A stretch of 64,000 nt of DNA from Massariosphaeria phaeospora (Eukaryota; Ascomycota; Dothideomycetes; Pleosporales): the NCBI GenBank assembly GCA_011032825.1, contig JAADJZ010000029.1, positions 248,001 to 312,000 on the forward strand. Reading direction: 5' to 3'. The translations under genes were made by a program, and so were the position numbers. Below, in pieces: positions 15,019 to 44,895 of the stretch. Each line of letters begins with the position of its first letter. Position 1 is the stretch's first letter. The notes under the pieces were generated by a model. It saw nothing but the letters and a program-made list of their open reading frames with translations, did not search any database and was not told where the DNA came from.

Positions 15019-17017
15019 CTACTCCTTGTCAGAAGCACTCACCGGCGGTACCTCGTCTGGGCCCCTCAACCGGGACCATTTGGGGACGAGCGTAAAGAGC
15101 GTGGCGACTCCAGCCATGGGGATGGCCAAGGCGAACGCTGCCCACAGACCATGGCTGTACGCTTCGAGGATGCCCGCGAGCTGCGCTGGCGTGAACAGAT
15201 GCCTGAGAGTCGTGGCATCGGCGCTAGCCACGCTGAAAGGGCTGATATCTGGGTTGGTTTCGCGAAGCTTGTTGATGAGCTCGTTCTGGAAGATGGACTG
15301 GCCAGCAGACACGACGATGGAACCACCCATGGACTGGAAGACTGTGACCATGCTATTAGCATATAAAGCAAGAAGGAGGGGTGGTGATGACTTACAAAGC
15401 ACGACGGAAGTTGTGGTGGCGACGTCAGAGGCCCTGACAATTCTTTGCGTCACGATGATAGGCACGTTGAAACAGCAGCCAAGTCCTATGCCGGCAATGA
15501 TCTGGTATCCAATCCACTCGCCAGCGCCAGAGTCTACCCCTAGGTTGAGAAGCAGGCCAGAGCCCACTGTTGTCATAATTCCGCCGAAAAGCATAAGCGG
15601 GTTCCAGACGCCGGTGACCGAAATGGAAACTCCAACGACGACCTGAATAATGGCTAGAGGCTGTTAGCTAGATTCATTGAATCAATTAGGCAACTTACTC
15701 ATGGCTAAAATTAAGGGTAGGAGACGGATGCCAGAGTCGACTGCACTCGTGCCTTTGACGGCCTGGAAATAGATGGGAAGGTAGAACAGGAGGATGTAGA
15801 AGTTTCCGGCAATGCTATTCACAGACAATTAGCGCACAAGTCATACAAAATGCTGAAGTAACCTACAAGAAGCAAAACAAGCAGCCTGGAGTGATGGTGC
15901 GGTGCTTCAGGAACCGTGGATGGATGAGCGCGCGCTCGCCCATCAGCCACTCATTCGCGGTGAAAGCGAGGCCAATGACAACAAATCCAACGAGCAATCC
16001 TATAACCTCGGAGTTATTCCATGCCTTAGAGACACCTCCCCACTGAAGAGCTAGCAGGTAGCAGACGACGGAAGCGCAGATCAGCGCGGTCCCCTGGATG
16101 TCCATTTGCAGCAGTTTTTCTTTGAGGGGAGCCTGGGCAGGCTTCGCGGCTCGGGGCGGGTGGAAGAAGAAAAACACGGCAGCAGCAGCGATACCACCAA
16201 AAGGCAGGTTGATGTAGAAGCACCAGCGCCAGCCGATGCCATCGGTAAAGGCTCCGCCAATCAGAGGTCCGACAATGCTCGCGATCGCGTACGTTGCTCC
16301 CAGGATACTGGTCATAGCTGGGCGGCTCTTCGACGGGGTCGAGAAGGCAATGATGATGTAGCATCCTGAGAATGTTCTATCAGAGGTTAGCTAACGGACC
16401 TCAGAGGACAGTTGGCCCCGCGAGACTGAATCGCATGGCACCATGATTATCAGGCATGATGATGTAATACGAGATTGACCTCTCAATCAGTACTAGCCAG
16501 GAGAGTCTCTTACCCAGCAACACCGGCTCCAGTAATGGCACGGCCGGCGATGAATGTGTCGCTGTTGGGCGCAACGGCGCAGATCAACGAGCCGATCTCG
16601 AAGACGAAGATACTGAACATGAACACAAGCTTGATGTTGAAGTACTTGAATGCTTTGCCCCACATGGATTGGGTGGCTGCCACGGGCAAGAAGAGAGCGG
16701 ACGCGTACCACCCGACATCTTCGAGCGACTGGAACTGATCCGTGATCTTGGGGATGGCGGTCGAGATGATGGTCAAGTCCAAGGAGGCCTGGTCTGCGTC
16801 AATTGCCTCCCTCTATCTTGTTCGACGTGGGCTGACTTACGAGAAAGATGCTAAAGACTAGGGCGACCACTATCATCCAGAATCGCAGTCCCGTGGGGTA
16901 TTCGCTCTCGTCGACTTCATCTTCAGGAAGAACAACGTGGGAGTCGGAAGATGCGGGCGTGGCCTCAGGCTTCGTATCGAAGGTGCCGGCAGCAACGTGT
17001 TCCTGCGAGGAGGTCAT
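15019..17017 (-). CDS. MFS drug:H+ antiporter (14-TM, DHA2 type), cluster efflux pump
   Basis: Plasma-membrane proton-driven exporter of small molecules. Minus-strand exons are 17017-16841, 16788-16514, 16376-15867, 15814-15699, 15653-15396 and 15341-15019. The introns are 52, 137, 52, 45 and 54 nt. Joining gives 552 residues in frame throughout. After an acidic cytosolic N-terminus the first helix leads into [17 protein letters not shown], the 14-TM family signature. [10 protein letters not shown] matches loop 2-3, [15 protein letters not shown] is motif C-like, and [20 protein letters not shown] is the TM5 antiporter motif, followed by [13 protein letters not shown]. These place it with fungal toxin/metabolite efflux pumps. 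At the edge of the terpene cluster it is the natural candidate to export the product. The substrate cannot be read from sequence. Confidence 0.92.
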
Positions 17018-17744
17018 GTTCGAGATGGAAGGAGTGTACAAGATACTGCAGCACAACGGAAGGTGCAAGTGGAGTATCAAGAAGGGCCGCCAGCTGCCAG
17101 GACATGATGCGGGGTGCCGGTGATGGTGGCTGGCTTTGAAGACCAGTAGCAGTCCCGAGCATCTGGAAACGGTCCCGAGCAGCTGGAGAACCCCTGCCGG
17201 AGGAGCCAAGACGGACCACAAGCGCACAGCGGGCGAACGATCTGATCAGCCTTACGGGGGATAACATGAGTGGCTGTTGCTGTTGGAGAGGGCCGGGGTC
17301 GGGGTTACCGCGAGCGGCAAGGCTCCGAGCGCCATCTCCCGGGGCTCCTAGCTGCGGCCATCAAGCGTGTCTGCGTCCGAGGCCGGCTTGTCGACCGATG
17401 GGGGTGGGCTTAGTTGGGCAATATTGTCGCGCCCACATCTGCGGGTGCTCAGCGAGTGCGTCAGCCAGCTGCTGAACGGCGCGGAAGGCTGACGTCCGAT
17501 TTTGGTCCGCGCCAGATGTCCGTCCCAGCACAGCGGGACCTGGGATTTGGGAACGGTGAACGGTGAGCGGCAGAGGTCAATCAGTTTTCCATCGCAACCG
17601 CATTCGATTCGACGGAGACAAGTAATGAGTGTGTCTCGGGTGGACTGTCTGGATACGGAGGTAGGTACATGCATCATGGCGCAGCCCTAGCGTGCCTGCA
17701 GATTCGCCCGTCCACCCGCCCGCCCCGCCCCGCCGACCTACCAC
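17018..17744. other. Promoter region of the MFS gene
   Basis: GC-rich spacer between two minus-strand genes. Open frames in it are antisense or low-complexity. It contains several CCG/CGG triplets that could serve Zn2Cys6 factors, but no clear inverted pair. Confidence 0.45.
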
Positions 17745-18401
17745 CTACACGGCAATCGCATCCCACGTCACCACCTCCACGCCCTCGACCTCGCCCGCCG
17801 TCTTGCCCTGCAACTGCGCCACCAGCCCGCGATCCTGCGCCTTCACCACGATGCCCCAAGTCCCGCCGTGCTGAAGCTCCTCTTGGTCTGCGTCCATGAT
17901 GTCCTTGCAGAACTCCCTCGACTTGGCGTGGCTCGCTTGATCCGTGACATTCCAAGCGGCCAGTACGGGCTTCGTGCCAACGACATCACGGGTGGTCTCT
18001 TCGAATGCCCGCCGCCCAGCGCCGCCGACGTGGAACAGTGCCGTGGTCGTCCTGGCGCTCAGGATCTCCGTCTGCGCTGGCGAGAGATTCGGCGTGTTGA
18101 GGTACACGGCGCCCTTCATGGTCAGGAGGTCGCCGAGCTCAATCAGCAGCGACATGATGGCGCCTCTCTCGAGAAACTTGGTGTGCAATTCGTCCGTGGG
18201 CCAAATGCCCGTCATTCCCAGCAACTGCTCTCTGGGGCCGTCGTCGCCTGGCGAGCTCAAAAGAAAGCGGAAGTGCTCGCCGCCGGCATCCTGGATTTCC
18301 GCAAGGCACTGCTGCAGGAATTTGACCAGACGCTCGTCCGTGGGTGCTAGTCCGTCTTTCAATTTCAGGTATGCAAACTCGAGCACTTGATCGTCGGCCA
18401 T
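17745..18401 (-). CDS. ABM-like (dimeric alpha-beta barrel) protein, function unknown
   Basis: Intronless 218-residue soluble protein without signal peptide or membrane segment. It appears to be built of two similar halves. Each half has a hydrophobic strand, a helix with FLQQCL- or FCKDIM-like text, a second strand and a GxWG/TGIW-type turn (MTGIWPTDE near residue 66; GGTWGIVVKAQDR near 185). A central helix AIMSLLIELGDLLTMKGAV precedes the second half. This pattern fits the fungal two-domain antibiotic-biosynthesis-monooxygenase-like fold. Such proteins occur in secondary metabolism, but many members have no known reaction. It sits between the efflux pump and a divergently transcribed P450 (511 bp apart), suggesting shared regulation with the cluster. 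Its catalytic role, if any, is open. Confidence 0.6.
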   Translation of the reverse strand: MADDQVLEFAYLKLKDGLAPTDERLVKFLQQCLAEIQDAGGEHFRFLLSSPGDDGPREQLLGMTGIWPTDELHTKFLERGAIMSLLIELGDLLTMKGAVYLNTPNLSPAQTEILSARTTTALFHVGGAGRRAFEETTRDVVGTKPVLAAWNVTDQASHAKSREFCKDIMDADQEELQHGGTWGIVVKAQDRGLVAQLQGKTAGEVEGVEVVTWDAIAV

Positions 18402-18912
18402 GGTGTGGTAGTTGATGTGAAGGTGTACGAATACGTGCTAGTATTAATGCAGCGTAGAAGCAGATTGCGTGTGCAAACACCACTTGGTTAGCTCTATACT
18501 TGAGCTATATAAAAGTGCACAACATGAGAACAGCTCACGTGAATCCCTATTGGGTCAACTCCGCAACCGTCCCATTAGTGCGTAAGACCACTTGTACTCT
18601 AGCACCGCCTTGGGACAGGTGCAATGTATTTCCCGAATCAGCCACTTGCGCCATTATCCATTAGCGTGTCTGCGCCGAGGCTGAACATGGCAAGTTTCCA
18701 GGCGAGGTGCAGCATGGATAGTCTTTCATACTTCTCCTTTAGGATAGTCATGTCTTGCTGTTGGAAGTGGCTTAACGGGCAAGTCTGCTGTACGCCTTAA
18801 AGTTGAGAAACTTGACCCATCGAATTCTTTTCTGAACCTCTTTTATACAGGCCGAACATTTCCGTCCGACTTCATTTGAGCACAGCAGCATCAGTCGGAC
18901 CAAAGAATCAAC
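18402..18912. promoter_or_regulatory. Divergent promoter between ABM-like gene and P450 A
   Basis: A 511-bp spacer separates two start codons pointing away from each other. It contains a TATATAAAAG box at about 18508. An inverted repeat, GTCCGACT..AGTCGGAC, lies at 18864-18900 just before the P450 start. Confidence 0.5.
18864..18900. promoter_or_regulatory. Perfect 8-bp inverted repeat before P450 A
   Basis: GTCCGACT at 18864-18871 and AGTCGGAC at 18893-18900 are perfect inverted copies with a 21-base spacer. They end 12 bases before the ATG. The arms contain CCG and CGG, the half-sites used by Zn2Cys6 regulators, but the spacer is long and the site may lie in the 5' UTR, so binding is a guess. 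Confidence 0.4.
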
Positions 18913-20655
18913 ATGACGGACGCATCATCGGTAGTGCCACCAGCCCCATTTCCGCTTGGCACCCTAAGCCTGTCCTCTGTGCTGGCTACGGGTCTCTTAA
19001 TTGTAAGTACAATTAATTTAATTGATCAATCAGAGTCGTGCAGTCGTTGCTAAGTTTATTGACTACCCACTAATATCAAACGCAACTGATGTGATTCGCA
19101 ACGATAATGTTGCATGACCTCTTCTCGAGCCTCGAGACTTTCGCTAACGTCACCACCACAGTCATTCATTTCACTTTTGTGGAACTATGTCTACAATCTC
19201 CACTTCCACCCGCTCGCCTCTTACCCGGGTCCGAAGCTCTGGGCAGCTTCCAGAATTCCGCATGAATACAGCTTGGTCCGAGGACGCATTACGCGTGACC
19301 TTGCGGTTCTTCATGCCCAATATGGCGATGTCGTTCGTGTAACGCCCACAACGCTCGCCTACATTCACCCGGATGCGTGGCCTGACATCTACGTCAGGAA
19401 GCCTGGACAGTCTGTGTTGCCGAAAGACATGAAGCGTTACTCGTACGATCTCTGCATTAACAACGCGCCCGAGAGCCTTACAGCTGATGAGCCAACCCAT
19501 TCGAGACTTCGCCGAGCCATGGCCTATGGCTTCAGTGAAAAGGCTCTCCGGGAACAGGAGCCTCTGGTGCAGTCTTTGATCGATCTATTCATCAACCAAA
19601 TGCGTAAGCGCGCCCACGACAAGATCGACATCTCAGCCTGGAGCAACTGGGCGACTTTCGACATTGTCGGTGAACTGGGCTTCGGTGAGACATTTGGCTG
19701 TCTTGCGAAAGGAGAATATCATCCCTGGGTGGCTCTCATCTTCGACGGAGTCAAAGGCGCCACCTTCCTCGGTGCCGCAAGGCAATTTCCTTGGCTAAGT
19801 GTCATCTTTCAGCGGCTCGTCGACTATTTCTTCATTGAGAAGCTCCGTGAACACAAGGGACTTGCTATCGAAAAGGTAGATCGCCGCCTTGCAGCCTCGA
19901 CGGACCGCAACGATATCGTGGGCCACATCATCCAGCATGATGGCAGCGCCAAAGAACTCTCGCGCGACGAGATCTACTCGAATCTCAATCTTATCATCAT
20001 GGGAGGCTCGGAGACGTCGGCTGCTGCCATCTCAGGTTGTGTCTACCATCTCTGTGCGTACCCTGACATGCGTCGGCGGCTTGAAGACGAGTTGCGTCAG
20101 TTCTCTTCCGAGAAGGACATTACCTTTGAGTCGACCTCGACCATGGAGTTCCTCGACGCCTTCATCCACGAAAGCATGCGTAAGTACCCTTCTCAGCCCA
20201 TCTCCACTCCGCGCGTTGCTCCCCCCGGTGGTTGCACGGTCGCAGGGAAATATGTGCCGGAAGGGACGAGCGTGGGCATCTATCAATCGGTAGCCTACAA
20301 TTCTGCGCGGAACTTCCGCGATCCGACAACGTTTGACCCGAGTCGATGGCTGGGGAATCCAAAGTACGAGAGCGACAGGAGAGATATCCTACGGCCGTTT
20401 TCGGTCGGGCATCGCAATTGCATTGGCAAACAGTGAGTCAGCCTTAATCATGATAACGTTTGACACTAGGGAGATGTTTGTGCTGACAGTCCATGCAGGC
20501 TCGCCTATTCTGAGATACGCGTCATCCTGTCGCGTTTGGTCTGGAATTTTGACATGGCGCTCTGCGAGGAAAGCAGAATGTGGACGGATCAACTGGCGTA
20601 CTGGATCTGGGCTCGACCGCCGCTCATGGTAAAATTGACGGAGAAAAAAGTCTAA
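18913..20655 (+). CDS. Cytochrome P450 A (CYP65/TRI11-like)
   Basis: Membrane-anchored heme monooxygenase, probably oxidising the cluster terpenoid. Exons are 18913-19002, 19162-20432 and 20499-20655, coding for 505 residues. Exon 1 supplies half of the N-terminal anchor (LSSVLATGLLI) and exon 2 continues it (SFISLLWNYVYNLHFHPLA). Visible motifs are the YPGPKLW proline-rich hinge, the I-helix GGSETSA (a variant of AGxxT), the ExxR in ESMRKYPS, a PERF-equivalent DPSRWL, and heme-binding FSVGHRNCIGKQ (Cys near residue 450). Intron 1 is 159 nt, three times the local norm, and contains copy B of the dispersed element. The gene ends only 51 bp from the convergent AflR-like regulator. Family assignment (isotrichodermin C-15 hydroxylase-like) is from overall look. 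Confidence 0.9.
19021..19103 (+). repeat. Dispersed short element, copy B (inside P450 A intron 1)
   Basis: Starts ATTGATCAATCAGAGTCGTG and continues through TTGACTACCCACTAATATC-like text and GATTCGCAACGAT. It lies wholly within the proposed 159-nt first intron of P450 A. Without it the intron would be about 76 nt. Confidence 0.75.
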
Positions 20656-20706
20656 GTCTAGCAAACGTAGTGTACCTACAGCCGTCCAACGCCAGATCTA
20701 TCGTAG

Positions 20707-21998
20707 CTATTCACCCATCTTCTCCCCCAGTTCGACTACCTTCTTCTCGTTCATGACAAGCTTAGAAAACTGTGATTGCGGTAGCGCGGACGACCCAATG
20801 GTCTTCATGTCCGCCAAGAACTCGGACAAATACCGCAGTTGCAAGAGAATGAGAGCCCGCATGAGACAATTCCACTCGCGTCCAGAACTCACTTCGTACT
20901 CACCCACAGCTAGGCTGTGGCCGAGCCCCTGACTTTCTTCAGTGTGCTTCGCATATCCGTTCACGACTTTGCTGCAGACTTTGACCAGTTTTTCGCAGAT
21001 GAACGTGAGTAGCATGAGCGTCTCGGTACGGGTGGTGCAGTCGGGGCAGCGCAGCAGCCGCTGGCAGCTCGACAAGGCGCCTTTGTTGGACGCCAGCGAA
21101 GCGTCGAGCGACGACTCGCCAACCACGGCAATGGACCCTTCCAAATCCTCAAGCAGAAACACAATGGTTTCCAGACAGTGGCACGTGCGTGTCCTCTGGT
21201 TCGCGGCTTCGAGGGGCACGGCATGCTGCGAGAAACTCTGGAATTGAGCATTCGTGTTGGACACCAGACTGCGGGGACTGATGGATGCAACGGGCGATGG
21301 GGGGAATGCTGTGTTCAGGTTGGCCAGGGGGGAAAAGCTGATTCGGTCCGAAGCGTCGGATCCGGGGCACAAGCCATGGGTAAACTCTTTGAAGTCTTTG
21401 AAGTCTGTATCGAACAGCGGGACAAGATCCTTCAACAGGTCGCTGGTATGGTCCAGTCCGAGATCCAGCCCAAGCAATTCCATGTCGTCAAGCGCTTGTG
21501 TAGGCTCTAGGATCTCTTCAGCATGGGTCTCGAGGGGGTTCGATGGTGGTGGAGTGATGGTGGTTGGCTGCTCCGTGAGTGGTACGGAACCCAAGTCCAT
21601 GGGCTCGTACGTGGACGGGGGAAGGAGCGGGGGTGAGGGAGGCCTGGAGATCGACGTGCGGGTTGCTCGCCTGCCTTTCCTCGAAGACTTGGCTTGGCTG
21701 GAGTCGTTATATGTGCACGACCTAGACAGAGCAGAGCATCGCGTGCAGCCATTACTGTCGCCGCTGCATCGAAGCTAACAGGCGAGTCAGTCGGGTCAGA
21801 TGTGGTGCTGCACAGAGCAGAAAGTACCTTCTTCCGACGGCAGTAGTCACAGGCCGAGTGCTGGAGCATGCTACATGGAGATTAGGATATGGCTCTGGCA
21901 CTTTACAGTTGCGGACAAAAGACTAACTCAAATGCTCCCGCCTTCTTCACAAACTTGATGTCGTTCTCTCGGGCGTCGTACTGCAGCATGCCAAACAT
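20707..21998 (-). CDS. AflR-like Zn2Cys6 pathway regulator
   Basis: Nuclear binuclear-zinc-cluster transcription factor, likely the cluster-specific activator. Proposed minus-strand exons are 21998-21928, 21870-21828 and 21774-20707 (introns 57 and 53 nt), coding for 393 residues. The second intron splits the DNA-binding domain; joining gives CDYCRRKKLRCSGDSNGCTR followed by a two-cysteine end, a perfect C-x2-C-x6-C-x6-C-x2-C-x6-C. The C-terminal half matches the AflR family pattern: a leucine-rich segment starting CHCLETIVFLL, then LLRCPDC, TLMLLTFICEKLVK and ILLQLRYLSEFL. The 24-residue N-terminal exon is the least certain part; translation could instead begin at the ATG at 21869. The gene is convergent with P450 A, and a second P450 lies 1 kb beyond its start. 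Confidence 0.85.
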
Positions 21999-23003
21999 GG
22001 CGACGTAAGGTGTGGTTGGGTAGAAGACTAGGGAAGATGTCGGATATCAGGGTGCAATTCACGGCGAGGCAAGTGCACACACAGAACGGGAGCTGGCCAG
22101 GCAAAGCGGAGAGTGGTAACCTTGCAAGAGCTGGACAACGTGCGGAGGTACTGTGAACCTGGATGCGGGAACGGCGACATGTAAATTGCTACAAACAAAG
22201 GGCATGTGCAGGCGCGTCGACGCTTGGCTGTCCAACGTACGCTAGACAATAAATACAGCAGAGTCGCAAAGGTACGTACGAAGATAGCGTCCCGCTTACT
22301 GCCGGACCGCTCTGGCGGATACGCACTCGGTGTAGGGAGCATACCTACATGATACATGATACGAGCTGTACAGATGCGGGCTGAGGTGTGTGAGTGTGAG
22401 CCGTGGTGAAGGAGCAGCGGCGGATGGCTTGAAGGAGGAGTGGTGGGCCTACCACCGACGAGTGCGAGGGAGCGGGTGAGATGGTGAGATGCACCCTGCC
22501 CGGCCAGTCTGCGATGGCTGGGCGGGGAGGTGCTGATTGGCCAGGCCGGGCGTGGGGTGGGTCGGCTTGGCGCAGCTAGCGGGCGCGCACGGACGCAGTG
22601 AATGAGTGAAGGCCGGCCGGCCGTTGCACGACCACTCCACTCCCGCTGACGACCAGGGACCACAAGGCTATGCCTCCCCGATGCCTCCTCCACCTCCCTC
22701 CACACCCCCGCCAACACCCCTCATGGCACGCCCTTGGCCCGACACCGCATCGGCGCCAGGGCGGGGGGTCCAGGGCTCACGTCACCATGTGCTACCCGCC
22801 GCTTATTGCACGCACGCCCAAACGGGCAGCGGCAGGGACTGAGATAGAGTGGGGTACGCTATTACTACGCATGTTCACTCATTATGACTGTAATGACTGT
22901 ATCGCTCGCTGGGTGCTCTATGCCGCACCCGTCGACGCGTGCAGCGACCACAGCCCTCGACAACAGCAGTCCTGCCGGCTGGGCTGGGCTGGGCTGGGCT
23001 AGG
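21999..23003. other. Intergenic, GC-biased, about 1 kb
   Basis: Upstream of the regulator and downstream of P450 B. Long G/C-skewed open frames are compositional and have no recognisable protein. A GGGCT tandem repeat is at 22981-23000. Confidence 0.5.
22981..23000 (+). repeat. GGGCT microsatellite
   Basis: Four perfect GGGCT units, followed by AGGCT, directly downstream of the P450 B stop codon. Confidence 0.85.
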
Positions 23004-24705
23004 CTAAGCTGAGCCGCTCGCTCCTCCCTCGGCCCTCCCTCCAGCGCGTGCCTGCCGCCGCCTCAGTCTGACCGCGATGGCGCGTTTCTCGACGAGTAGG
23101 AAGGTGCGCAGATGCTCCCACTGCAGCGCGCCACCGCCACCGCCGCCGTCCCGCTCCCGCCCCGCCGCCGTGATGTCGAAGGCCCACACCAGCCGGGCCA
23201 CGATCAACCGCATCTCAGCCCACGCCAGCTGCTTGCCCAGGCAGCTCCGCGGGCCGACGCTGAAGGCCTGCACCGCGCCGCGCTGGTCGCTGGCATACGG
23301 CGACGCCGCCTGGCTGTCTTCGCCCGCCAGCCAGCGCTCCGGCACGAACGACGACGCGTCGTGGAAGAGCGCCGGGTCGCGGTTGAGCACGTACTGCTGG
23401 ATCGACACTGCCGTCTGCACCACCGCGCGCACGTCAGCAAAGGGCACTCGGCAAACGCACCGGAAGGCGCACTGAGTTGCTTACACCGCCTGCCAGCCAG
23501 ACTCCGCACACCCTCTCCCCCCCAGCGGGCACGCGTCGGGGCAAGATCCACGGCACCGGCGGGCACAGGCGCAGGCCCTCGTTGATAACGCCGTTCATGT
23601 ACTCCAGCCCGCCCACTCTGCTCAGCGTAATCTCAGCCTCGCTCGCAAACGCCGATCGGACTTCGTCGGACAAAAGCCGGCATCGGGCGCCGTCAGCGGA
23701 CAAAAAGTTGACAATGCCGCCAAGCACCGTCGCCGTCGTCTCGCTGCCCGCGATGGTGAGCGCTGCAAACGTGTAGTCGATCTCGTCCAGCGACATGCCT
23801 TGGCCCTCCTTGGCCTCCTTCAGCGTGTGGAACATGAGGTCCTCTCGCGTCACCTCCCAGTTCATTCGCCGCCGCACCTTGTCGACCACCTGCTGGAAGT
23901 GGTCTGCCTGCACTTTCTTCAACGATGCCGGAATGCACCTTGTCAGCAGCCAGTCCAGCGCCGGGTAGAATTTGACCGAGTTGACAAACGCAATAGCTTT
24001 GATGTTGTCGAATATCAACGCAATCCACGGGTGATACTCGGAATGCTCCAGGCAGTTGAACGACTCGCCGAAGCCCAGGTCGCCAAACACATCAAATGTC
24101 GTGAAGTTCAGCCAGGGGAATATGTCGACCACCGCGCCGTTCGTGCTGCCATCTGCCACTTCGGCTGCATGCACCTGCTGGCGCAATCGCTCGATAAGCA
24201 GAGAAACGTAACGTTGGATAATGGGCTCCTGTGCCTTCAGCGCCCCTGACGTGAAGGCGGGCACGAGCGTCTTGCGAATGCGGGCATGAGTCGCTGGATC
24301 GATCGCATTGATCAGTGACTTGGGGCTCGGTTCACTCCACCAGAGAGCGTCCTTGAGGAACTGCTGGCGTCCAGGCCGTGGCTGGAGGATCTCCGTCCAC
24401 GCATCGGGGTGCGCGAAAGTTACTTCGTCAGGCGCAATCCGTACGACCTGGCCATACTTTCGGTGCAGTCTCTCGACATCTTGGACCAAGGTTCCGCGGA
24501 GGAGGCAGCGGATGAAGGGAATTCGAGACGCCGCCCAATTCGAGGGACCAGGGACATTCGAGAGCGGGTGGAAGGCCACATTGTAGATGGCTTTGGCGAT
24601 GGGGTACTAAGTCGATTAGTGCGTACCACGACGTCGTAACCACAGATCGGGTCGTACAAGCAGCGATAGAGAGAAGGTGATGACGAGCGCGCTGACGTGA
24701 ACCAT
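23004..24705 (-). CDS. Cytochrome P450 B (CYP65-like)
   Basis: Membrane-bound heme monooxygenase of the same broad group as P450 A. Minus-strand exons are 24705-24658, 24606-23485 and 23414-23004 (introns 51 and 70 nt), coding for 526 residues. The small first exon encodes MVHVSALVITFSLSLL and joins in frame to YPIAKAIYNVAFHPLSNVPG, rebuilding the anchor and hinge. Motifs: I-helix IAGSETTATV, ExxR in NEGLRLCPP, PERWL, and heme-binding FSVGPRSCLGKQ (Cys near 448). The C-terminus is Gly/Arg/Ala-rich and runs into the GGGCT repeat, so the last ~15 residues may be a recent extension. Its start faces the PTH11-like gene at 25215 (509 bp apart). Confidence 0.9.
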
Positions 24706-25214: not shown

Positions 25215-26598
25215 ATGTCTGAAGTTTCTGATCTTTGGGGAGCCATGCCCCCTCCGATTGGGGTGGAGCCTAATTTCCACAGCCCACCAGATCAGAAGGA
25301 ACTAAACATCGCCTGCCATGCCGTTTGCCTCACACTGGTCACACTGTTCTTAGCCATGAGGCTGTACACACGATACTTCGTTACGAACACTATGAGTTGG
25401 GATGACGGTACGTAAACTCGATACTGCCTCCTTCAGCCACATGAGATCGCGTTGGTTGACGTGCATAGGGCTTTTGACACTATCCTTTGTAAGGTGCCAC
25501 GATCTCAAGCACGATATTCAAGCGCGATCAGGCCAGCACTAAGACCAGATCTTAGATCTTGACAGTTGCCTTTTCGGGTATGCTCATCAAGAGCTACGAA
25601 TTTGGAATCGGTCGACACATGTGGGACGTTCCCGCTTTCTGGATTCCCAGCGCGCTCAGGGTACGTACTATCACTCGCCTACAACTCGCATTGAGTCATT
25701 CAATAGCATTTTGATACTCACCCGGTACTACTATAGCTCTATACGATTGCAGCGTGGATTTACACGATTCTAGGTACATCCTACCGTCTCGCCATCCTAG
25801 CCGTCTATTACCGTATTTTTACTGTGAACAAACGCATCCGTGGTGCCATCATCTTTGGATTCACAGCCATTGCTATCATCAATCTCGCCTTCTTGTTCGT
25901 TATGATCTATGCCTGTAATCCGCCCGACAAGGCCTGGGACGCGCTCAAGCCTGGCGAGTGCCGCGACCCCCGCCCTATAGCATTTGTAAGCGGAGCTCTC
26001 AATGTTAGCGAGGATCTGTACGTGCTAGTGCTTCCACTTCCAACAATACATGGCATGAAGATGAGGCTTGCGCGAAAATTGAGGCTATTGGCCGTGTTCG
26101 GGCTGGGGGTTTTTGCGCTTGTGGCGAGCATCATCCGGTTGAGCAAGACGCAGGACTTGGTCACCAGCAAGGACACCACCCGGAACTTCTCTGAGATGGG
26201 CTTTTGGGCGTGAGTCACAGTCACCTTATCGATAGTATGACATTGCTGACAAGTATAGCGTCATTGAAGTAAACGTCTCCATGATGTGTGCGTGTCTCGC
26301 AGTGCTTCCCGCCTTTATCGAGCATCACTGGCCGAAAGCAGCGAGGCATTTCAACTCAGGGAACAAATCCCGCATCCAATCTTCGCAGGGCACTGCTTCT
26401 GTGCAGCGTATGCGAGGTTCTGCACCGCTCACTAAGCCAAGAGCGGCCCACCATTCGTCATGGACCAATATCAGCTCAACGCACACTTCGGACGAGAACT
26501 TGACCGCCAACAAGGGGCCCGCAGGACGCATCACCGTCACCCAAGAATTTGAGATGGATTATCTTAGCACGGCCGACGCTTCACGGACTCGCAGATAG
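25215..26598 (+). CDS. PTH11/rhodopsin-like integral membrane protein 1
   Basis: Seven-helix fungal membrane protein of the rhodopsin-domain (PTH11-like without CFEM) family; ligands and partners are unknown. Exons are 25215-25407, 25469-25488, 25556-25660, 25737-26209 and 26259-26598, coding for 376 residues. Exon 2 is only 20 nt; with it the frame reads WDDGLLTLSFILTVAFSGML, the expected TM2-TM3 text. The family pattern is clear: MRLYTRYFV..SWDDG at the end of TM1-2, GIGRHMWDVP, SYRLAILAVYYRIF, IYACNPPDKAWD and LPLPTIHGMKMRLARKLRLL. The C-terminal ~100 residues are polar and cytosolic. Such genes often sit in or beside fungal clusters; a role in sensing or transport here is inference. Confidence 0.82.
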
Positions 26599-27509
26599 CG
26601 AGCGAGATGCATGGACCTTGCAATTGTACATTAGCCTCTCATACTTGCTCTTGCCGCGTCAGACGAAGCGTAAGGGCGATAATCAACTCACAATAAACCA
26701 AGTTCGCCGACTTGGCTGTACTTGGTAGCATAGAACCAAGTCCGATGGAAAGCTGGGCTGCGTGGCAGTTACGATAGGCTTTTGCGAAGGATGCGAAGAG
26801 CAATTCAAATCTGAAACGAGCGATATGCCGATATCGCGCTCGCGCAATCCGTAATTCCCACATGTGTCGTATACTGTCGAACAAGGGCTATCTTAACTCC
26901 GGGCCAGCCCGCATATACCTCCTGCAGCAGGTCGGGGGGGTCGGGAATAGAGCGGCAGAGAGCTGTGATGTCGAAGGCTGATATGACTTGCAGCTCGTCC
27001 GGTCGGAACCATTTTCGCTTGTCTAACGCTTACTACACTGCATACTGCATCGGTGAAGCCGCAATCCCCACCGTCTGCAACCGTGGCGCACCGTTCTGAA
27101 ACTCGGCTTTTGCACCAGTTGCGCAGTTCTCATTTGGGACGGGATAGTACCTAGCCTTACGGTAACACAGCCGACCGGGATTTGGCCAAATGCCCTGCAC
27201 GACGGTTTTCCTCCAATTGCGGTAATAAGCTCGCGTGTCGCCAGATGCATCTTACCCAGATCCAGATTTGTACTCGTGCCGAATACGGAGTCGAGATTCT
27301 AGCCGCTTGGCCTCGTGCAGCTTCCGAGCCTTCGGTGCTTTTCCAAGATCAGGCGTGTGACTCGATAGGCCAACCGAATCGGGGAATGCAAACTACGAGA
27401 TTGAGAAATCCCGCTACTTTTGTAGAGCACAGTTTCGACCATGAGCGAGACTTTGGGTATGCCGTGTGTTTGCATGATTATTGAATTACCGCTGTCTTGA
27501 ATATCAGCA
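26599..27509. other. Promoter side of the GGPP synthase gene
   Basis: No gene supported. A TCCGGTCGGA pair (CCG-N2-CGG-like) occurs at about 26998 and could suit a Zn2Cys6 factor; this is weak. Confidence 0.4.
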
Positions 27510-28961
27510 ATGGCTCCTCTACTCGACGAAAGCTTTCATGCGGAGACGTGGTCGCACCATCAGGAAACGTGTTCTACGACTGCACTTCCGAATGATCTCA
27601 CCGGTGATGGAGTGTCCGGGGTTAAGCGCTCACAATCCATGGCTTCTGTACATGCCGACGTGGTAACTTATAACGACTCCGCCACTTCTGATAGCAGCGG
27701 AACTACCGCCAACACTGAACGTAAGGACACGCCCATGTCTAGCGAAGGCGAGATTACCGGCTCCAATGGAAAAGCAGACGCCGGCAAGGCTCAAAGTGCT
27801 CACTTGGCTTTGCAAGAGGTGCTTGGTGATGGAACTTGCGATGCAGAGGTGTCGCTTTTGACGCAGACCGTTCCAGCGCTAGAAGACGATGTGAGTACCA
27901 TGTCTATTGGACTTCGGACACACTGTTGGCGTTAATAATGACTTACCGTATACCAGGTAATACTTGAGCCCTTCCGCTACCTCTCTTCCCTGCCAGGGAA
28001 AGGCGTCCGAGACCTCGCCATCAATGCTCTCAACTGCTGGCTCGAAGTGCCCGAGGAGATGACCGGAGTTATAAAAATGGCCACCAACATGCTACACAGT
28101 TCCAGCTTAATGCTCGATGACCTCGAAGATCGCTCACCTCTTCGGCGTGGGAAGCCATCCACACACACCATCTATGGCCCCGCATCAACGATCAACTCGG
28201 CCACATTCCTGTACATCAACGTGATTAACGTCCTGGGAAAGCTAAATAACTCTCAAGCAATAACCGTGTATACCGGTAAGTGAAGCACCTACGAAGGGAC
28301 AGTGTCGTCTAGGTGTTAATCGTTGTATTTAGAGGAGATGCGAAGCCTCTTCATTGGCCAGAGCTACGACATCCACTGGACCGAGAGTCTGAAATGCCCC
28401 TCTGTCACAGACTATCTCCGCATGATCGACGGTAAAACCGGCGGGCTTTTCCGCTTTTTCGCGCGCCTTCTCATCGCCATGTCACCGCACCAGCACCACC
28501 ACACTTCCTCGCTTGATCACCTGTGCGCTCTCTTGGGTCGGTACTTCCAGATCCGAGACGACTACCAGAACCTCGCCTCGTCAGATGTACGTCTACATGC
28601 ACCTCATCCAATACTTGCTCGACTAACGTGGATACCACTATAGTACACCGCGCAGAAAGGGTTTTGCGAAGACCTCGACGAGGGCAAATATTCACTTCCG
28701 CTCATCTACACCGTGAACAACACCTCCGACATGATGCTGTTGAGCGGACTGCTTCAGTGTAGAAGGTTCGGCGGCGGCCTCACGTTCGAGCAGAAGGTGT
28801 TGATGTTGGAGCACATCAAGGCGAGCGGCAGCTTGGACTATACGTTGCATGTGCTGCATACCTTGTATGTGGAGATTGACACGGAGATCGGCAAGCTGGA
28901 AAGGCATTTTGGCAAGGATAATATGCAGTTGCGACGGCTTTTGGCCATGTTGAAGGTCTGA
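27510..28961 (+). CDS. Geranylgeranyl diphosphate synthase (chimeric-PT-like) with long N-terminal extension
   Basis: Makes GGPP, or possibly GFPP, from FPP and IPP. Exons are 27510-27890, 27957-28275, 28333-28586 and 28644-28961, coding for 423 residues. Residues 1-127 are Ser/Thr/Gly/Glu-rich, low-complexity and unlike a normal GGPPS N-terminus. The trans-prenyltransferase fold begins at about 128 (VILEPFRYLSSLPGKGVRD). It has the first Asp-rich motif LMLDDLED (about 181-185), the RRGKPSTH loop, GQSYDIHW, the KTGGLFRFFARL helix, the second Asp motif RDDYQNL (about 309) and KGFCEDLDEGKYSLPL. All catalytic residues are present. The core looks most like the prenyltransferase half of bifunctional fungal diterpene synthases. 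Here it is a stand-alone gene 3.3 kb from the cyclase gene. Chain length cannot be decided from sequence. Confidence 0.88.
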
Positions 28962-29929
28962 TTGCGGAGGTGTGCATGAGCAAATGTGGTTGGGCCGCTT
29001 ATCGTCATGGTTTACGTTGGAGTTGGGGTTTTGCATTTGCGGGATAGGAGGAAATTGGTTAACGCGTAGTAAATCAAATGTAATGTCCTTCATTAGGGGC
29101 TGTTGAGATGTTGCGAATGTGTTCTACAATTCTCGGAACGAGCTGCTACGATGGACGAATCGCCACCCATGCGTATCCCGGAAGGGCTTTGAGTGATTAT
29201 TATATAAGTAAGTATTAATCCAAACAAAATTAATCCTGAATAGCACGACATCGTTCAGTAGATTTACGGCGTGGGTTAGAGTTTCAATTTCTTTTTTCCA
29301 CACCTTGTGCTGCTTTGAGGCAGATGCGGGGAACCACGAAGCAATAAATTTGCCGTAATATGGTACTTGAAGTATGTTCACAGTAAAGCAGGGCGGGACT
29401 GTCCCCACATATTTGTCCACGTGAATGTAATGGACTAGGCGATGTCAAGTAGACACTGTCCCCACACCCACGTGACTTACAGTATCGCCCCTGTGTTATA
29501 ATGTGATGTGGTTGTCTGGTGCTGCAGAGCGGCACAGCCTGTTTCAATATGTGGGTTTTCGTTTTGGCGTGGGTATCAATAATGATGTTCAATAAAACTA
29601 CTGGGATTGGGTGTTTTCAATGGTTGTTAATATCAAGGACCTTAATTCGCAAAGTATTGCACGTTGCCTGGATAGTTTCCCATGGTTGTCGATATGAAAG
29701 ACCTTGGTTCGCAAAATATTGTTTCATCTCCAGGCGAGTCAACGAGCTTGTAAGACACGCAATTTCTATGACACCTTTTTATATTGAGTACCAAGATAGA
29801 ATAGAGAGCGACCCACGCTACGTACGTCTAAACAAATGGGGAAATCTAACCATCCCGCCTGCTCCGCTCATACAACTCCTTCATACTTGTTCCCGTGTCT
29901 ATCGTTCAGAGTGAGCATTGTCCCATCGT
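28962..29929. other. Intergenic between GGPPS and P450 C (convergent)
   Basis: AT-rich. No gene supported. It contains two 38-bp imperfect direct repeats at 29621 and 29683. Confidence 0.5.
29621..29720 (+). repeat. Pair of 38-bp imperfect direct repeats
   Basis: Copies at 29621-29658 and 29683-29720 differ at 7 of 38 positions, six of which are transitions. Shared parts include TGGTTGT, GACCTT and TTCGCAAARTATT. Confidence 0.65.
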
Positions 29930-31747
29930 TCAGTACACTTTGATTCTCAGTCCCTTGCTCGTGAGTTTAGGAAGCGGGATCAAATAGTCGTGGGACTGGA
30001 CGATGTCGCTCTCGTCTGTCTCGTGCAGCCTCAGCTCTGGGCCGCCAGGTCGGAACAGACTTGCAAGCACCAGATTCAGCTCTACATATGCCAGACTGCA
30101 GTAGAAATCTCAGTCAGTCTAATCCAACTACTGCGAGCGCATGCGGCGGACTTACTTCATTCCAAGACAGTTTCGGGACCCTTTTGCAAACGGTACCAGA
30201 CTCCGGTTCATCGCCGGAGTGACGTTGTCGAGCCAGCGCTCGGGTTTGAATTTGAAAGGTTCGTCGTAGACCCTTTCGTCAGTGTGCACTAAGTTTGTTA
30301 GATCGGATGGTATTGCAGCTTGATGTGTGGAAAACTTACTCATGTAGGCGGACATGCCAACAGGTACCTAAATGCAGTGAGCGCGGAGCTACCAAGAGCC
30401 CAGATGAAGAACTTACCCCCTTCGGAATGACCCAGTCCTTGAATCGTATAGCTACATCGGGGGAAACACGTGGAAGTCTATGCATGACTCCATAGCTGAG
30501 CCGTAGACCTTCTTTAAGGAGCGCCTGGAAGTAAGACAACTTCTCCAAATCTGCCCAAGAGGGCATCTTGTGCGGATAGTCTTTCATCAACGGTGCCAGT
30601 TCTTCCTGGAGCCTAGCGCGGACTTTGTCGTCGTTCATGATGTAGAATGCAATGAAGTCCATGGTGCGGGCCGAGCTCACGGTGCCTGCTCCGAGAAGGA
30701 CCTGGGCTTCCCGGCCCAACCTATCTACGGACAGGTCACTTTCGGGGAGGCCGCTTGTGAGAATATGGCGAAAGATGGTGTTGTTCTTCGATTGAAAGGA
30801 TGAATCGGAAAGCTTCTGCTTCTCCGATTTTGCGTCGATGATGTGCTGCCTGGCCATGTTCTGGAACTTCTCCATTTGCTTCATCCGAGGATCCAACCAT
30901 AGCATGATTCTTTCGGGGATCAATCTCAATGCACTGCATTTGGTTAATTATGGATCGGTTGTTTCCACGGGTATCATACGTACCTAACCATCTGAGGAAA
31001 TGCCATGACAAGAGGAATACGGTGAATGAAGTCGTGGAGTAGATTGTACCAGTCTACGCCGAAGTCTTCCTCATCGACCATATCGGTATGGTTGTCGCAG
31101 CAGATTCGGCCGATCACATCGCCGGAGAGAGCGACGAAGGCGTGATCCAGGCGCATGACTTGTCCAGTTCCTTTCACGGCTTCGAACCTCTTTACCAGCC
31201 TGTTGGCCACACCGGCTACCATGGGCTCCAGGCGGGTTACGCCGAGCCGAGAAAAGAAGGGCTCAAGCGGCTTGCGGCGACGTCGATGCAGATCATGATC
31301 GGTGGAGAGGAAGTGAGAGCCGTCGAATTCAATGCCTCTGGCGAAGTGATCGTAGTTCTCGGTCCGTCTTACACTACCCGCAACATATAGCTCATTGTAA
31401 AAATCAGGATCATGGACAGACAGTTCGTCAGGATTGATTCGGACGATGGGGCCTGTTCCCGTGTGAGTAATTGGGATCTCATGCATGTATGTATGATACG
31501 GTCACTTACCATATTTGTCATGCATTTTCTTAATCTCGAAGACGTACTGTCCATGCCTGAAGTAGTCGTGATAGAATTCATAGTATCCGGTGGCGGCAGC
31601 GATCTTTGGACCCGGGAACTTTGCGAGAGGCGAAAGGAAGAGGCGATAGAAGACAAGACCAAGATTGTAGAAGAGAAAAGCTGCCAGCACAGATACAGCC
31701 AAGTTGCCAGAAACGACGTTTGTGATACTGTCAACGATGGCTGCCAT
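29930..31747 (-). CDS. Cytochrome P450 C (TRI4/CYP58-like)
   Basis: ER-anchored heme monooxygenase located between the GGPPS and cyclase genes. Minus-strand exons are 31747-31510, 31452-30984, 30933-30417, 30367-30340, 30288-30156 and 30095-29930. The introns are 57, 50, 49, 51 and 60 nt; one exon is only 28 nt. The product is 516 residues and every junction keeps frame. An N-terminal helix (LAVSVLAAFLFYNLGLVFYR) precedes the hinge LAKFPGPKIAA. I-helix LLGAGTVSSARTM has the AGTxSSA form seen in trichodiene-oxygenase-like enzymes. ExxR is in KEGLRLSYG, PERWLDN follows, and the heme motif is FAKGSRNCLGMNLA (Cys near 458). It is divergent from the cyclase gene (513 bp), so co-expression is likely. 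It is the strongest candidate for the first oxidation of the terpene product. Confidence 0.92.
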
Positions 31748-32260
31748 TATTCCTTAGTCGCGATATTCACAAGATGTTCCACAATCGAGGGTGATATCAA
31801 CGTTTTGGCGCCATAAGTGAGTCACTGCTCAACAAGGTATCGTCTGGCCACGGAACTGGTAGTCGACCGCCTGGAAGCCGGGTTGCGGGAATCCGCCCAA
31901 AACAGCCTAGCGCTTACGAATCGTCTCCCAGACCTGCAAGCAACCGAATGCACAGCCGCTAATCGGGACTTCCATATTAAGCATTATCGGAATTCATCTT
32001 CCGCAGAGTATGAGAGACGCGCTCTCGTTCCCGAAAGGTCTCTACCCCTCTCGTCTGGAGCCGCGGACCCGGAAACTGCGAAATGGATCTTGGGACCGTT
32101 CCGCCTTGGGCTATTGATATACCCAAAACGGCCTTTGTCCAATCCAGCCATATGGAAGCCATGGATTAGTCCTCTGCCAATTATTTCTCACTCCTCGATT
32201 TCACCTGAACTCAACTTCATACCCCGCGCTTTTCAAACTCTCTCTCCAAAGCCCCTCAAA
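31748..32260. promoter_or_regulatory. Divergent promoter P450 C / terpene cyclase
   Basis: A 513-bp spacer between two head-to-head start codons. CT-rich tracts lie immediately before the cyclase ATG. Several CGG/CCG triplets occur, with no unambiguous AflR-type TCGN5CGA palindrome seen. Confidence 0.5.
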
Positions 32261-33565
32261 ATGGAGTACAAGCACTCTGACATCGTAGATCCTTCCACTT
32301 ACGACCTCGAAGGTCTTTGCGATGGGATCGATCTTCGCTGCCACAAATACCAAGACTTCGAGGATATTGGTACGTTAAGAGCGCAGGAGGACTGGCGGAA
32401 ATGGGTCGGGCCAGTGGACATGTATCGGGGAGGCTTGGGGCCAAAGTATAGCTTCATGTCAGTGTCGGTGCCAGAATGTCTGCCAGAGAGATTGGAGATC
32501 ATCTCTTACGCAAATGAGTTTGCCTTTCTGCATGACGGTATGTTCTATTGCAAGAAAGCCAAGGGGGCACAGATTCTGATCTAGTCACAGATGTCACAGA
32601 TGTTGCTACACAGGCCGTCATTGACAAGGAGAACAACGACATGCTGAGTGCATTCAGCCAAATAGCCAACACGGGCCGTGCAAGCTTCCGAAACTTCGGA
32701 AAGAAGCGGATACAGGGACAGATCCTCCTCGAGATGATGGCCTTGGATCGTCCGCGCGCACTGACGACGGCAAAGTCGTGGGCGACTTTTGTGCAGACGG
32801 CTTCGGGCAAGGAGCATCACAAGAACTTCAAAACCTTGGACGAGTACCTACCATATCGAAGCATCGATGTCGGTCAAATGTACCGCTTCCTTATGCTCCT
32901 CCCCTTACTTTGGCTAACAACAGCATAGGTTCTGGCATGGCATGGTGACGTTTGGCATGGCTCTCACTATTCCCGAGCACGAAATGCCTCTCTGCGAGAA
33001 GCTCATGCTGCCGGCCTGGCACGCCGCTTCGCTCCAGAACGACCTGTTTTCGTGGGAGAAAGAATACCGCGACGCCAAAAAGCACGGCCAAGCGGATGTG
33101 GTCAACGCGATATGGGTGATCATGAAAGAACACAACATGAAGGTCGACCAGGCGAAGGTGTTCTGTCGAAAGAAGATCAAGGAGGCCGTGGCTGATTACG
33201 TCAAGATCGTCGAACGGACGAAGAAAGACTTGACCATCTCGCTCGACTTGCGCAAGTACATCGAGGCGATGCAGTACAGCCTCAGTGGCAATGTCGTCTG
33301 GAGTCTCTCATGCCCTCGGTACCACGAGAAAAAAGACTACAACGAACTCCAGCTGTTGCGGATGAAGCACGGCGTGAAGAAGTACCCTACTAAGCTTCGC
33401 CTGGAGGGCAGGAAGCAGCGCGGTTTCGCGTGGCTTCGGATACTACTGGTCAGCCTCACGGTGCTCGCCGGTGCGCTTCTGTGGGGATCGTCCTTCCTTT
33501 CCCATATCCAACTGCCATCGCATCTGTTGAATCTTCCCCAGTCATGGTCCTTGACGCAAACTTGA
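32261..33565 (+). CDS. Stand-alone class I terpene cyclase with C-terminal membrane helix
   Basis: Ionises and cyclises a prenyl diphosphate, probably GGPP. Exons are 32261-32537, 32591-32879 and 32929-33565 (introns 53 and 49 nt), coding for 400 residues. The N-terminus (YDLEGLCDGIDLRCHKYQDF, then RAQEDWRKWVG, then VSVPECLPERLEIISYANEF) matches the cyclase half of fusicoccadiene/ophiobolin-type bifunctional synthases. Splicing creates the metal-binding motif LHDDVTD (DDxxD, residues 92-96). The NSE motif is NDLFSWEKE (226-234), and a basic WSLSCPRYHEKK end matches the RY effector. Both metal motifs are intact. There is no prenyltransferase domain. After residue ~345 a basic stretch leads into a clear membrane helix (about 355-378, WLRILLVSLTVLAGALLW), which is not normal for this soluble fold. 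The product is unknown. Confidence 0.88.
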
Positions 33566-34624
33566 GTGGGGGTCTCCTGATACGTATTCTACTAGTTCAA
33601 GGGATGTGCATGGATGACGATCGGTTTTAGCATGCACATCGAATGTCAGGGCTGCAGTTATCTCCTCGCGACCAACGGGTAGCTGGATAGATAGCGAAGT
33701 ATGATGTACAATGACAATAACTGTTTTCTGAGTATTGTTTTATGTACCCTGTTCGCTGTGTCGGATGGCTGCTTTCGTGTGGTCACGTGAGGCCACGGCT
33801 CCCGAGGTCCCGGCCGAGGTCAGCTCGCTACAGGGCTAGCCCTACCCCATAGGCGCCCCCCTGCATACTTGCACTGCAGTCTTCAGCCGTGCATCTCCTG
33901 CGCTCTCTCCGTCTGCCACATTCCAAACAGCTGTGGACGCTGTGACACTGCTTCGGGTCATGCTTCGACAGTTGGGGTCCAGCAGCATGCAGGGTAGCCA
34001 TCGCAAGGCATGATGGCGCAACCGGACATGCGCACCCCACACCGAACGGAGCGTGTATGCAACCACCTCCTTTACCGTCAAAGTAACGTATCCGTCGCCA
34101 CGAGGCCTCGCCTTCCATATCTGCAGCTGGGTAGGTGGGCGGAGATTACCGGGAGCAATATGGGCGCCCGCCTCGCGTTCGGTCTCCGTCGTCCAAACGC
34201 GATGGCCGTCGTTGCTATAAGTACCCAAGTGCGTTTTGCGATTTTCCGCATCCCGCATACTACCACGGCTGCTAATATCTCTTGCGGGCGGTTCCTCCCG
34301 CGCCTTTGTTTCCTCGGTACATTACGTCTTGGCTACTTCTCGTTTTCGATTATTAATTTCATGCCCACGGATACGGCTTTCTGGCACGATACGTCTATGG
34401 TAATCGCGAATCTATATTATCGAGCTTCAAGTCACACAGGAAACCATCCAGGTTTCCACCTCGCTGCAACGGACAAGACACTCAGCTGCGCAACTTGCTC
34501 TGGCAGCCAGGCCCGTTCCAGCCACCTTGAGTTTTACATATGATCACCACATCCCGATCTTCTTACTTTACTCAAAGAACGCATCTGCTTGGCCCACGGA
34601 AACGATTACCTACCACGATCAAAA
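33566..34624. other. Intergenic, about 1 kb
   Basis: No gene supported. Open frames on both strands overlap each other and lack a recognisable domain. Confidence 0.5.
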
Positions 34625-35836
34625 ATGGCACACGACACGCCTGCTCACGGTAACGACGCGGACATGAAAATGTCATTTGTCAATAGCTCGTTGCTTGGTG
34701 TTGCTATTTCACTTCCCATCATCGCTTCTATCGCAGTAGGGCTACGGCTTTACGCGAGAAGACTGAAAGGGCATACTGGGATTAAGACGGATGACTGGAC
34801 GCTTTGGATCACCCTGGTACGTTGCAATGAATTCCACTAAACCACACGCCGCTAGTCTCACAATCGGCAACGCAGATCATGTGCTGGGCCCATTCAATCA
34901 ATACTATCATCGCAGGTGTAGTTGGTGGGATTGGTACCATCACGCTACCACCGCGCGAGTACGCAAATGTCGCGTTGCGGGTATGTCCATCATCTCTTCA
35001 GCATGTTGCTCCATCAACTAACGGCTTCTAGACATTATGGGTATCTAGCTTTTTCTTGATAACTGCCCTTTACACTGTCAAGCTTTCTATCCTGTTCTTC
35101 TACCATCACCTCTTCTCAATCAACGATTCGTTCAGACGAGCCTGTTACTTCATGGTAGGGATCCTAACGCTGTGGTGGATATCGTCTATAACAGTGAGTC
35201 TTCCTCACTTTGAGTGAACTCAGTAACTCAACGGATTTTTAGATAGTACTTCTCTCGACTGATCCTTTCGATGCCGCCTGGAGGGACGCCTCACGTGCAA
35301 GACATCGCTTCGACTTCAATGCCTGGTACGTTACGTACTCAGGACTATCCATCTTCTTCGACGTCGTGATCCTCTGCTTCCCAATCCCAATGGTCAGATC
35401 ACTCCGCGTCAACACCCGGCAGAAAATCTCGATACTCGGAATATTCTGGCTTGGAGGCTTCGTCTGTATTTCCGCTATTGTCCGCTTCGTTTTCCTATAC
35501 AACTCCATCTATCAACTCACCGACTTCGGGCAAAACCGGTATAGCAAAGTCACTGCTGCATTTATCTGGGCGGAAATCGAACCAAATTGCTCCGTCATCG
35601 CGGCCTGTCTACCAACCTACGGTCCCTTTTTCAAAGAAGGGCGCTTCTTGCCAGGCTTCTTTCGGTCCCTTCGGTCCAAGATTGGGTTGTCGCCTACTTC
35701 TAGACATATGTCGCATCCGATAGGCACGAGTCACAAGGATGGCAGCGCCTACTACGAGCTCAGCAAGACTGCGGGTAGCAAAAAGGGCACCGGAGAAATA
35801 AGCCACGGGAGGGGTAGCCAAGCTTCGCTAGCTTGA
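34625..35836 (+). CDS. PTH11/rhodopsin-like integral membrane protein 2
   Basis: Second seven-helix PTH11-like protein, without CFEM domain. Exons are 34625-34816, 34876-34980, 35032-35193 and 35243-35836 (introns 59, 51 and 49 nt), coding for 350 residues. Recognisable text: TM1 GVAISLPIIASIAVGLRLYA followed by RRLKGHTGIKTDDWT, LWVSSFFLITALYTVKLSIL with FFYHHLF (TM3), AWRDASRARHRFDFN in the loop, FFDVVILCFPIPMVRSL (TM5), ISILGIFWLGGFVCISAIVR (TM6) and AAFIWAEIEPNCSVIAACLP (TM7). The cytosolic tail is about 75 residues. It differs clearly from protein 1, so this is not a recent tandem duplicate. It marks the right edge of the terpene region; membership in the cluster is uncertain. Confidence 0.87.
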
Positions 35837-44728: not shown

Positions 44729-44895
44729 AATATATGCACAAGGGCATTAACTATACTCTGAAAAGACTCACCGAGTTTATGTCATACGTGGTAGAAATAA
44801 TATTCAATAGCAGATGTAATTGTTTTCGCATGTAGTCAAGGACAACACAGCAGGATATCTGCGTATCATTACTATAACAGGAAGCTCAGAAAGCT

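Follow-up and report, generated by a model that had tools for sequence, protein, structure and literature searches.

A putative fusicoccane-type diterpenoid gene cluster of Massariosphaeria phaeospora with separate cyclase and prenyltransferase genes and a hydrophobic cyclase tail

The cyclase and prenyltransferase pair compared with described systems

Fungal diterpene cyclases are described both as free-standing proteins and as fusions. In the sordarin clusters the diterpene cyclase SdnA is accompanied by a separate geranylgeranyl diphosphate (GGPP) synthase, SdnC, which the more compact of these clusters lack (PMC9095873, PMC12006653), and FgGS is termed a monofunctional diterpene synthase (PMC7065159). 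The tad cluster of Talaromyces wortmannii comprises two genes, the cyclase gene tadA and the cytochrome P450 (P450) gene tadB; addition of a GGPP synthase raised the product five-fold, and TadB oxidises talaro-7,13-diene several times (PMC9551204). PaFS of Phomopsis amygdali is fused to its prenyltransferase through a linker of about 70 residues, and the fusion gives an approximately two-fold gain in rate (PMC8190136). The subject of this analysis is a ten-gene locus in a 64,000-nucleotide window of Massariosphaeria phaeospora contig JAADJZ010000029.1, in which a class I terpene cyclase (TC) and a GGPP synthase-type prenyltransferase (GGPPS) are encoded by two genes, each with its own stop codon, with a P450 gene (P450 C) between them on the opposite strand. 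We favour, with moderate confidence, the reading of this locus as a diterpenoid cluster of the PaFS kind, in which a separate GGPPS would serve a TC that forms a likely fusicoccane-like skeleton, P450 C would carry out the first oxidation, and TC would probably be tail-anchored at the endoplasmic reticulum (ER). Observed in the sequence and underlying this reading are the gene identities, the intact motifs, the protein families, and the hydrophobic tail of TC with its presence in one clade.

The locus resembles the sordarin systems in that cyclase and GGPP synthase (there SdnA and SdnC, or TdnA and TdnC) are separate proteins accompanied by several P450s, a likeness of description; the sordarin clusters hold other tailoring genes. 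The tad cluster likewise has a cyclase of the fusicoccane type, associated with a single multifunctional P450, but is described as two genes without a GGPPS (PMC9551204). A T. wortmannii P450 (P0260) is 56% like P450 C and could, at a guess, be TadB. The fusaterpenol synthase FgGS is a stand-alone enzyme like TC (monofunctional, PMC7065159) and was among the PDB matches to it, but is only 28-29% identical in the structure alignment. The closest counterpart is the cyclase domain of PaFS (P0013), which shares 54.6% identity with TC across 350 columns, the same fold and the same catalytic motifs; whereas PaFS is fused, TC is a free-standing protein with a hydrophobic helix at its C-terminus.

The initial annotation had rested the novelty of the locus on the unfused state of the two enzymes. 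That claim fails, because SdnA/SdnC and the monofunctional FgGS are already published, and the cyclase matches also rule it out: 108 of 120 listed (the best 120 of 231, the window's own included) carry no prenyltransferase Pfam domain, a count that is no census, as the search took in proteins of at most 700 aa and so excluded many fused ones, and some gene models are perhaps incomplete. Separate cyclase and GGPPS genes are an already known arrangement.

Motifs, Pfam family and predicted fold all place TC in the PaFS subfamily of fungal class I terpene cyclases. Its best match among PDB sequences is the PaFS cyclase domain (E 1.1e-125), and the AlphaFold2 model (28 sequences; mean predicted local distance difference test, pLDDT, 88.4) has PaFS cyclase chains as its four top PDB fold matches, with template modelling (TM) scores of 0.94-0.97 by target length. 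The translation contains DDVTD, NDLFSWEKE and CPRY intact, which we take to be the class I aspartate-rich, NSE and RY motifs. GGPPS has the motifs and domain of a GGPP synthase: DDLED and DDYQN, presumably its two aspartate-rich motifs, are intact, and polyprenyl_synt scored 190.3 bits against 27 in Pfam. A chimeric synthase would hold cyclase and prenyltransferase in one protein; here both database proteins are single-domain.

The family of P450 C occurs repeatedly in the vicinity of PaFS-type cyclases in other ascomycetes, as judged by relatedness and by shared contigs. Contig size is known for 118 of the 120 relatives listed and equals that of a listed TC or prenyltransferase match in 39; in 38 of these, the window's own included, the organism also agrees, the remaining one (P0321, Canariomyces) being a collision with an Aspergillus contig. 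Size serves here as a stand-in for contig identity, and since many contigs are hundreds of kb or Mb long, close proximity is supported in part. The other 79 had no size match, and may still have a cyclase nearby, because the TC and prenyltransferase matches compared are those listed, 120 each. Neighbouring or near locus tags were found for four pairs (Nn.00g094310/094320, NUW58_g677/678, PG985_000846/847 and JN550_013232/013234), and short contigs are shared in Glonium (17.6 kb) and Melanomma (18.0 kb). Relatives named by their sources include sdnH, oblB and a fusicoccadiene C-8 hydroxylase. Of the "up to three oxidation steps" first proposed for the locus, three are possible, but only P450 C is tied to cyclases through the co-location of its relatives.

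The hydrophobic C-terminal tail of the cyclase

Residues 355-373 of TC form a hydrophobic segment (mean hydropathy 2.13) followed by 27 further residues. Lys or Arg occupies 8 of the 20 positions before the segment and none after it; the corresponding numbers after the segment are 4, 3 and 2 in the relatives P0004, P0021 and P0005. AlphaFold2 predicted a helix at residues 350-381, set apart from the cyclase domain and of lower confidence (ten-residue mean pLDDT 63, 85 and 76). Hydropathy and the predicted helix thus agree on a single hydrophobic helix near the C-terminus, as in tail-anchored proteins, which suggests that TC may carry a C-terminal ER tail anchor beside the P450s. Squalene synthase (Erg9), another prenyl-diphosphate enzyme, is held at the ER by a C-terminal anchor; it differs from TC in family and reaction and can serve as an analogy only.

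The distribution of the tail was followed in 99 TC-only proteins with a PRY motif among the matches listed (9 of the 108 had no PRY and were left out). A hydrophobic stretch after PRY, with a mean hydropathy of at least 1.2, was present in six of the 99. Five of them, P0001 (the window TC), P0002, P0004, P0005 and P0021, have means of 1.61-2.20 and all belong to one clade (support 100/97); the sixth, P0088, has a weaker stretch (1.44), lies outside that clade and is the sole case among the other 94 tested. Within the clade the tail is carried by all five members long enough to have it, the four relatives being 64-69% identical to the window TC; P0003, which stops where the helix would start, and P0025, a fragment of 230 aa, have no bearing on it. 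Most single-domain cyclases stop shortly after PRY: in a slightly different set, also of 99 (the listed proteins below 480 aa that have the motif), 65 have fewer than 19 residues beyond it (median 3). As far as sequence goes, the conserved hydrophobic tail is the new part of the locus. No description of a membrane tail on a fungal class I cyclase was found in the literature search, which is weak evidence given that most subscription journals lie outside its coverage.

A broader proposal, offered tentatively, is that a small ascomycete lineage has class I diterpene cyclases that are tail-anchored at the ER beside the P450s by which their insoluble product would be oxidised, have no fused prenyltransferase (lost or never had) and would receive GGPP from a prenyltransferase of a different chimeric lineage, so that channelling would occur at the cyclase-to-P450 end and not at the prenyltransferase-to-cyclase end.

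Descent of the two genes and alternative readings

The two halves of the pair were placed in separate midpoint-rooted trees of rows selected among the matches listed. In the prenyltransferase tree (59 domains chosen from 127 BLAST matches), the window GGPPS and P0122 of Byssothecium circinans (100/99) group with three fused proteins (98/91), nested in a 23-row group (98/96) that contains one other single-domain row, P0145, which at 297 aa and from a 1,560 bp contig is perhaps a fragment. A single clade of all 21 single-domain prenyltransferases was rejected (p 5.6e-8). Nine PDB sequences matched GGPPS at E<=1e-70, all of them named as bifunctional synthases or as prenyltransferase domains of such enzymes apart from 7wij, which is named only geranylgeranyl diphosphate synthase yet has 718 aa; stand-alone GGPP synthases rank below these nine. 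Because it is nested among fused rows and the 21-member single-domain clade is rejected, GGPPS is most likely, by descent, the prenyltransferase domain of a chimeric synthase minus its cyclase. In the TC tree (71 rows chosen from 189), the window TC lies in a six-row single-domain clade (100/97), with 32 fused rows (100/98) as its sister group in the tree as drawn, within a weakly supported group of 39 (69/60). A fused cyclase-prenyltransferase of 709 aa (P0136), the cyclase part of which is 54% identical to the window TC, is encoded on another M. phaeospora contig, of 612,120 bp.

The chimeric ancestry of GGPPS, and the position of the TC clade adjoining the fused rows, would also be expected had one PaFS-type chimeric gene simply split into TC and GGPPS with P450 C between them. 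The N-terminal extension of GGPPS, about 120 aa rich in Ser, Thr and Ala, resembles a linker in length and make-up; it is not claimed as a linker relic, since stand-alone relatives of 393-396 aa seem to be extended too. Such a fission is distinctly improbable, because the chimeric proteins nearest to TC are not those nearest to GGPPS: a single group of the TC clade plus P0126 and P0130, which are fused and related to GGPPS, was rejected (p 7e-5), as was one with P0124 added (p 2e-4), the groups having been picked after the GGPPS tree was seen. A single clade of all 27 single TCs was not rejected (p 0.148), so that TC may never have been fused. On these trees, the pair appears to have been assembled from genes of different lineages. 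The tail itself may be incidental, in an ordinary unfused fusicoccane-type cluster whose TC is cytosolic like Tri5 and works with GGPPS as SdnA does with SdnC, which jointly yield cycloaraneosene (PMC9095873, PMC12006653). PMC9134587 describes Tri5 as cytosolic, also mentions suggestions of toxisome binding or of ER attachment, and leaves its role in the ER 'toxisome' open. The early end of P0003 agrees with an incidental tail, and so does the weakest clade tail, which is near chance (191 of 5,000 shuffles). The segment is nevertheless kept in the window TC and its four long-enough relatives although their sequences have changed, and we regard an incidental tail as rather doubtful.

Several observations weigh against the favoured PaFS-kind reading with an anchored TC. 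When each tail was shuffled 5,000 times, the real stretch was matched 12 (window), 19, 64, 1 and 191 times, so that no single tail is proof. A 1.83 Mb contig of Byssothecium circinans holds the closest P450 C (75%) and the closest stand-alone GGPPS (P0122), but the TC listed on that contig among the best 120 of 231 TC matches, P0057, lies outside the anchored clade; another TC beyond these may be present on it. TC shares no more than about 55% identity with the nearest characterised cyclase, and enzymes of the PaFS family make many skeletons. Among PDB sequences GGPPS comes closest to stellatatriene synthase (E 2.4e-87), a sesterterpene maker, and its closest solved relatives include both C20 and C25 makers. 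Together with the oblB-named P450 among the relatives of P450 C, the stellatatriene synthase match would fit a sesterterpenoid pathway in which the GGPPS-type enzyme makes geranylfarnesyl diphosphate and TC a C25 skeleton, a reading we hold to be unlikely, as in the PDB sequence search the score of TC against PaFS was 422.8 bits, far above those against stellatatriene synthase (331.1) and astellifadiene synthase (313.0). Promoter sequences gave no link between the genes: no inverted 4+4 motif or 7-mer was common to the seven promoter regions beyond shuffles (the top inverted motif was present in two of the seven, where 40 shuffled sets gave 2-3, and the top 7-mers in five, where 40 shuffled sets gave 4-5), and an AflR-type site occurs in one of the seven. 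A CGG-N4-CCG site was present in three of them as a raw count. Because no promoter motif is shared, membership of the left-hand genes stays putative, and the locus may be two neighbouring units, a right-hand one of GGPPS, P450 C, TC and either or both membrane proteins, and a left-hand one of the MFS, ABM-like, P450 A, regulator and P450 B genes. The links through relatives cover only TC, GGPPS and P450 C, the three genes searched, and P450 A and P450 B are 37% identical to each other and 24-25% to P450 C, as two units would allow; the modelled genes are spaced by about 1.1 kb or less and a regulator and a transporter are customary in fungal clusters of this kind, which speaks for one cluster. 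Two units are a possibility to be taken seriously, though on balance a doubtful one.

Gene content of the locus and the proposed pathway

The ten genes and three head-to-head promoters that the initial annotation had placed between 15019 and 35836 are present in that span, in that order and on the strands given, and the ten gene models have intact spliced frames. The TC and GGPPS models are letter for letter the M. phaeospora database proteins P0001 and P0121, and the P450 C model equals P0236 (100% identity across 100% of the length), the three entries lying on one 578,537 bp contig; the database check and the homologue searches cover these three genes. Nine of the ten proteins received the Pfam family expected from their labels; for the two rhodopsin-type proteins, the Pfam run used earlier gene models that differ in part from the coordinates in the table. 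The label "ABM-like" was unconfirmed, as the protein has no Pfam match and its single-sequence structure model (mean pLDDT 41.8) is too poor for a check. The AflR domain of the Zn2Cys6 regulator scored 27.0 bits against a cut-off of 24.

Table 1. Gene models and other features of the locus (positions within the window)
Feature	Position	Strand	Details
MFS transporter, 552 aa	15019..17017	-	six exons; Pfam MFS_1 and TRI12; pathway membership putative
218 aa protein, "ABM-like" label unconfirmed	17745..18401	-	no Pfam match
Cytochrome P450 A, 505 aa	18913..20655	+	three exons; Pfam p450; intron 1 with repeat; membership putative
Zn2Cys6 regulator with AflR domain, 393 aa	20707..21998	-	three exons; Pfam Zn_clus and AflR; membership putative
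Cytochrome P450 B, 526 aa	23004..24705	-	three exons; Pfam p450; membership putative
Membrane protein 1	25215..26598	+	exons 25215-25407, 25566-25660, 25737-26209, 26259-26598; Fung_rhodopsin PF20684; membership putative
GGPPS-type prenyltransferase, 423 aa	27510..28961	+	exons 27510-27890, 27957-28275, 28333-28586, 28644-28961; Pfam polyprenyl_synt
Cytochrome P450 C, 516 aa	29930..31747	-	six exons; Pfam p450; family recurrent near PaFS-type cyclases
P450 C/TC head-to-head promoter region, 513 bp	31748..32260	.	interval between start codons
Class I terpene cyclase (TC), 400 aa	32261..33565	+	exons 32261-32537, 32591-32880, 32930-33565; Pfam Terpene_syn_C_2
TC, PaFS-like cyclase domain	residues 1-337		
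TC, C-terminal hydrophobic segment	residues ~355-373		
Membrane protein 2	34625..35836	+	exons 34625-34816, 34876-34980, 35032-35193, 35243-35836; Fung_rhodopsin PF20684; membership putative

The other two head-to-head pairs have start-codon gaps close to that of P450 C/TC, 511 bp for ABM-like/P450 A and 509 bp for P450 B/membrane protein 1 (ATG at 25215). The spaces between the modelled genes contain open frames of up to 230 codons and may hold a further gene. The six flanking models included in the domain scan are a DUF3176 protein, a carboxypeptidase, a GH35 beta-galactosidase, an SPX protein, a small protein and a peroxidase/P450 fusion; the small protein (37454-37930), which adjoins the cluster, was without a match in the domain scan. 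The fusion (55670-59105, minus strand, some 20 kb from the cluster) is large and combines an animal haem peroxidase domain with P450 sequence, and presumably resembles fungal fatty acid oxygenases. A degenerate direct repeat at 14172-14572, just outside the left edge, consists of two copies of about 215 bp that overlap slightly and share 74% identity. Intron 1 of P450 A (19003-19161) carries a copy (19012-19104) of a short repeat of 73-93 bp, with other copies at 1358-1450 (plus strand), 44658-44731 (minus) and 55308-55380 (plus) that are 80-88% identical to it; a 20-base core has four matches with up to 3 mismatches, against 0.04 expected. The position of the P450 A copy in a modelled intron recalls the introner-like elements of Dothideomycetes (PMC4457414). 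With regard to the rhodopsin-type genes, one predicted protein of Chlorociboria aeruginascens (P0042) combines a terpene cyclase with a fungal rhodopsin domain; the gene prediction may have joined two adjacent genes, in which case it may hint that rhodopsin-type genes adjoin such cyclases in other fungi.

Sequence matches and Pfam bear out a terpenoid cluster in which a fusicoccadiene-type cyclase is accompanied by an unfused GGPPS-type gene and by three P450 genes, as originally proposed, and the searches with TC, GGPPS and P450 C brought up no closely homologous cluster of known product, the finding that the initial annotation had named as a refutation. In the proposed pathway, the GGPPS-type enzyme would produce a polyprenyl diphosphate, most likely GGPP, which TC would cyclise to a polycyclic hydrocarbon, most likely of the 5-8-5 fusicoccane-like type or a close variant. 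P450 C would perform the first oxidation or oxidations of this hydrocarbon, as its family suggests, and P450 A and P450 B may act afterwards; the Zn2Cys6/AflR protein may regulate the genes and the MFS protein may export the product. TC would probably sit on the ER membrane by its C-terminal anchor, next to the P450s, instead of being tethered to the prenyltransferase; having no link of the PaFS type, it would, if anchored, be held at the membrane of the P450s.

Even without a real anchor, the locus would remain a plausible origin of a diterpenoid of a well-known kind. A real anchor would be a natural means of keeping class I cyclases close to their P450s at the ER, and the anchored clade and its unanchored relatives would offer a ready-made comparison.

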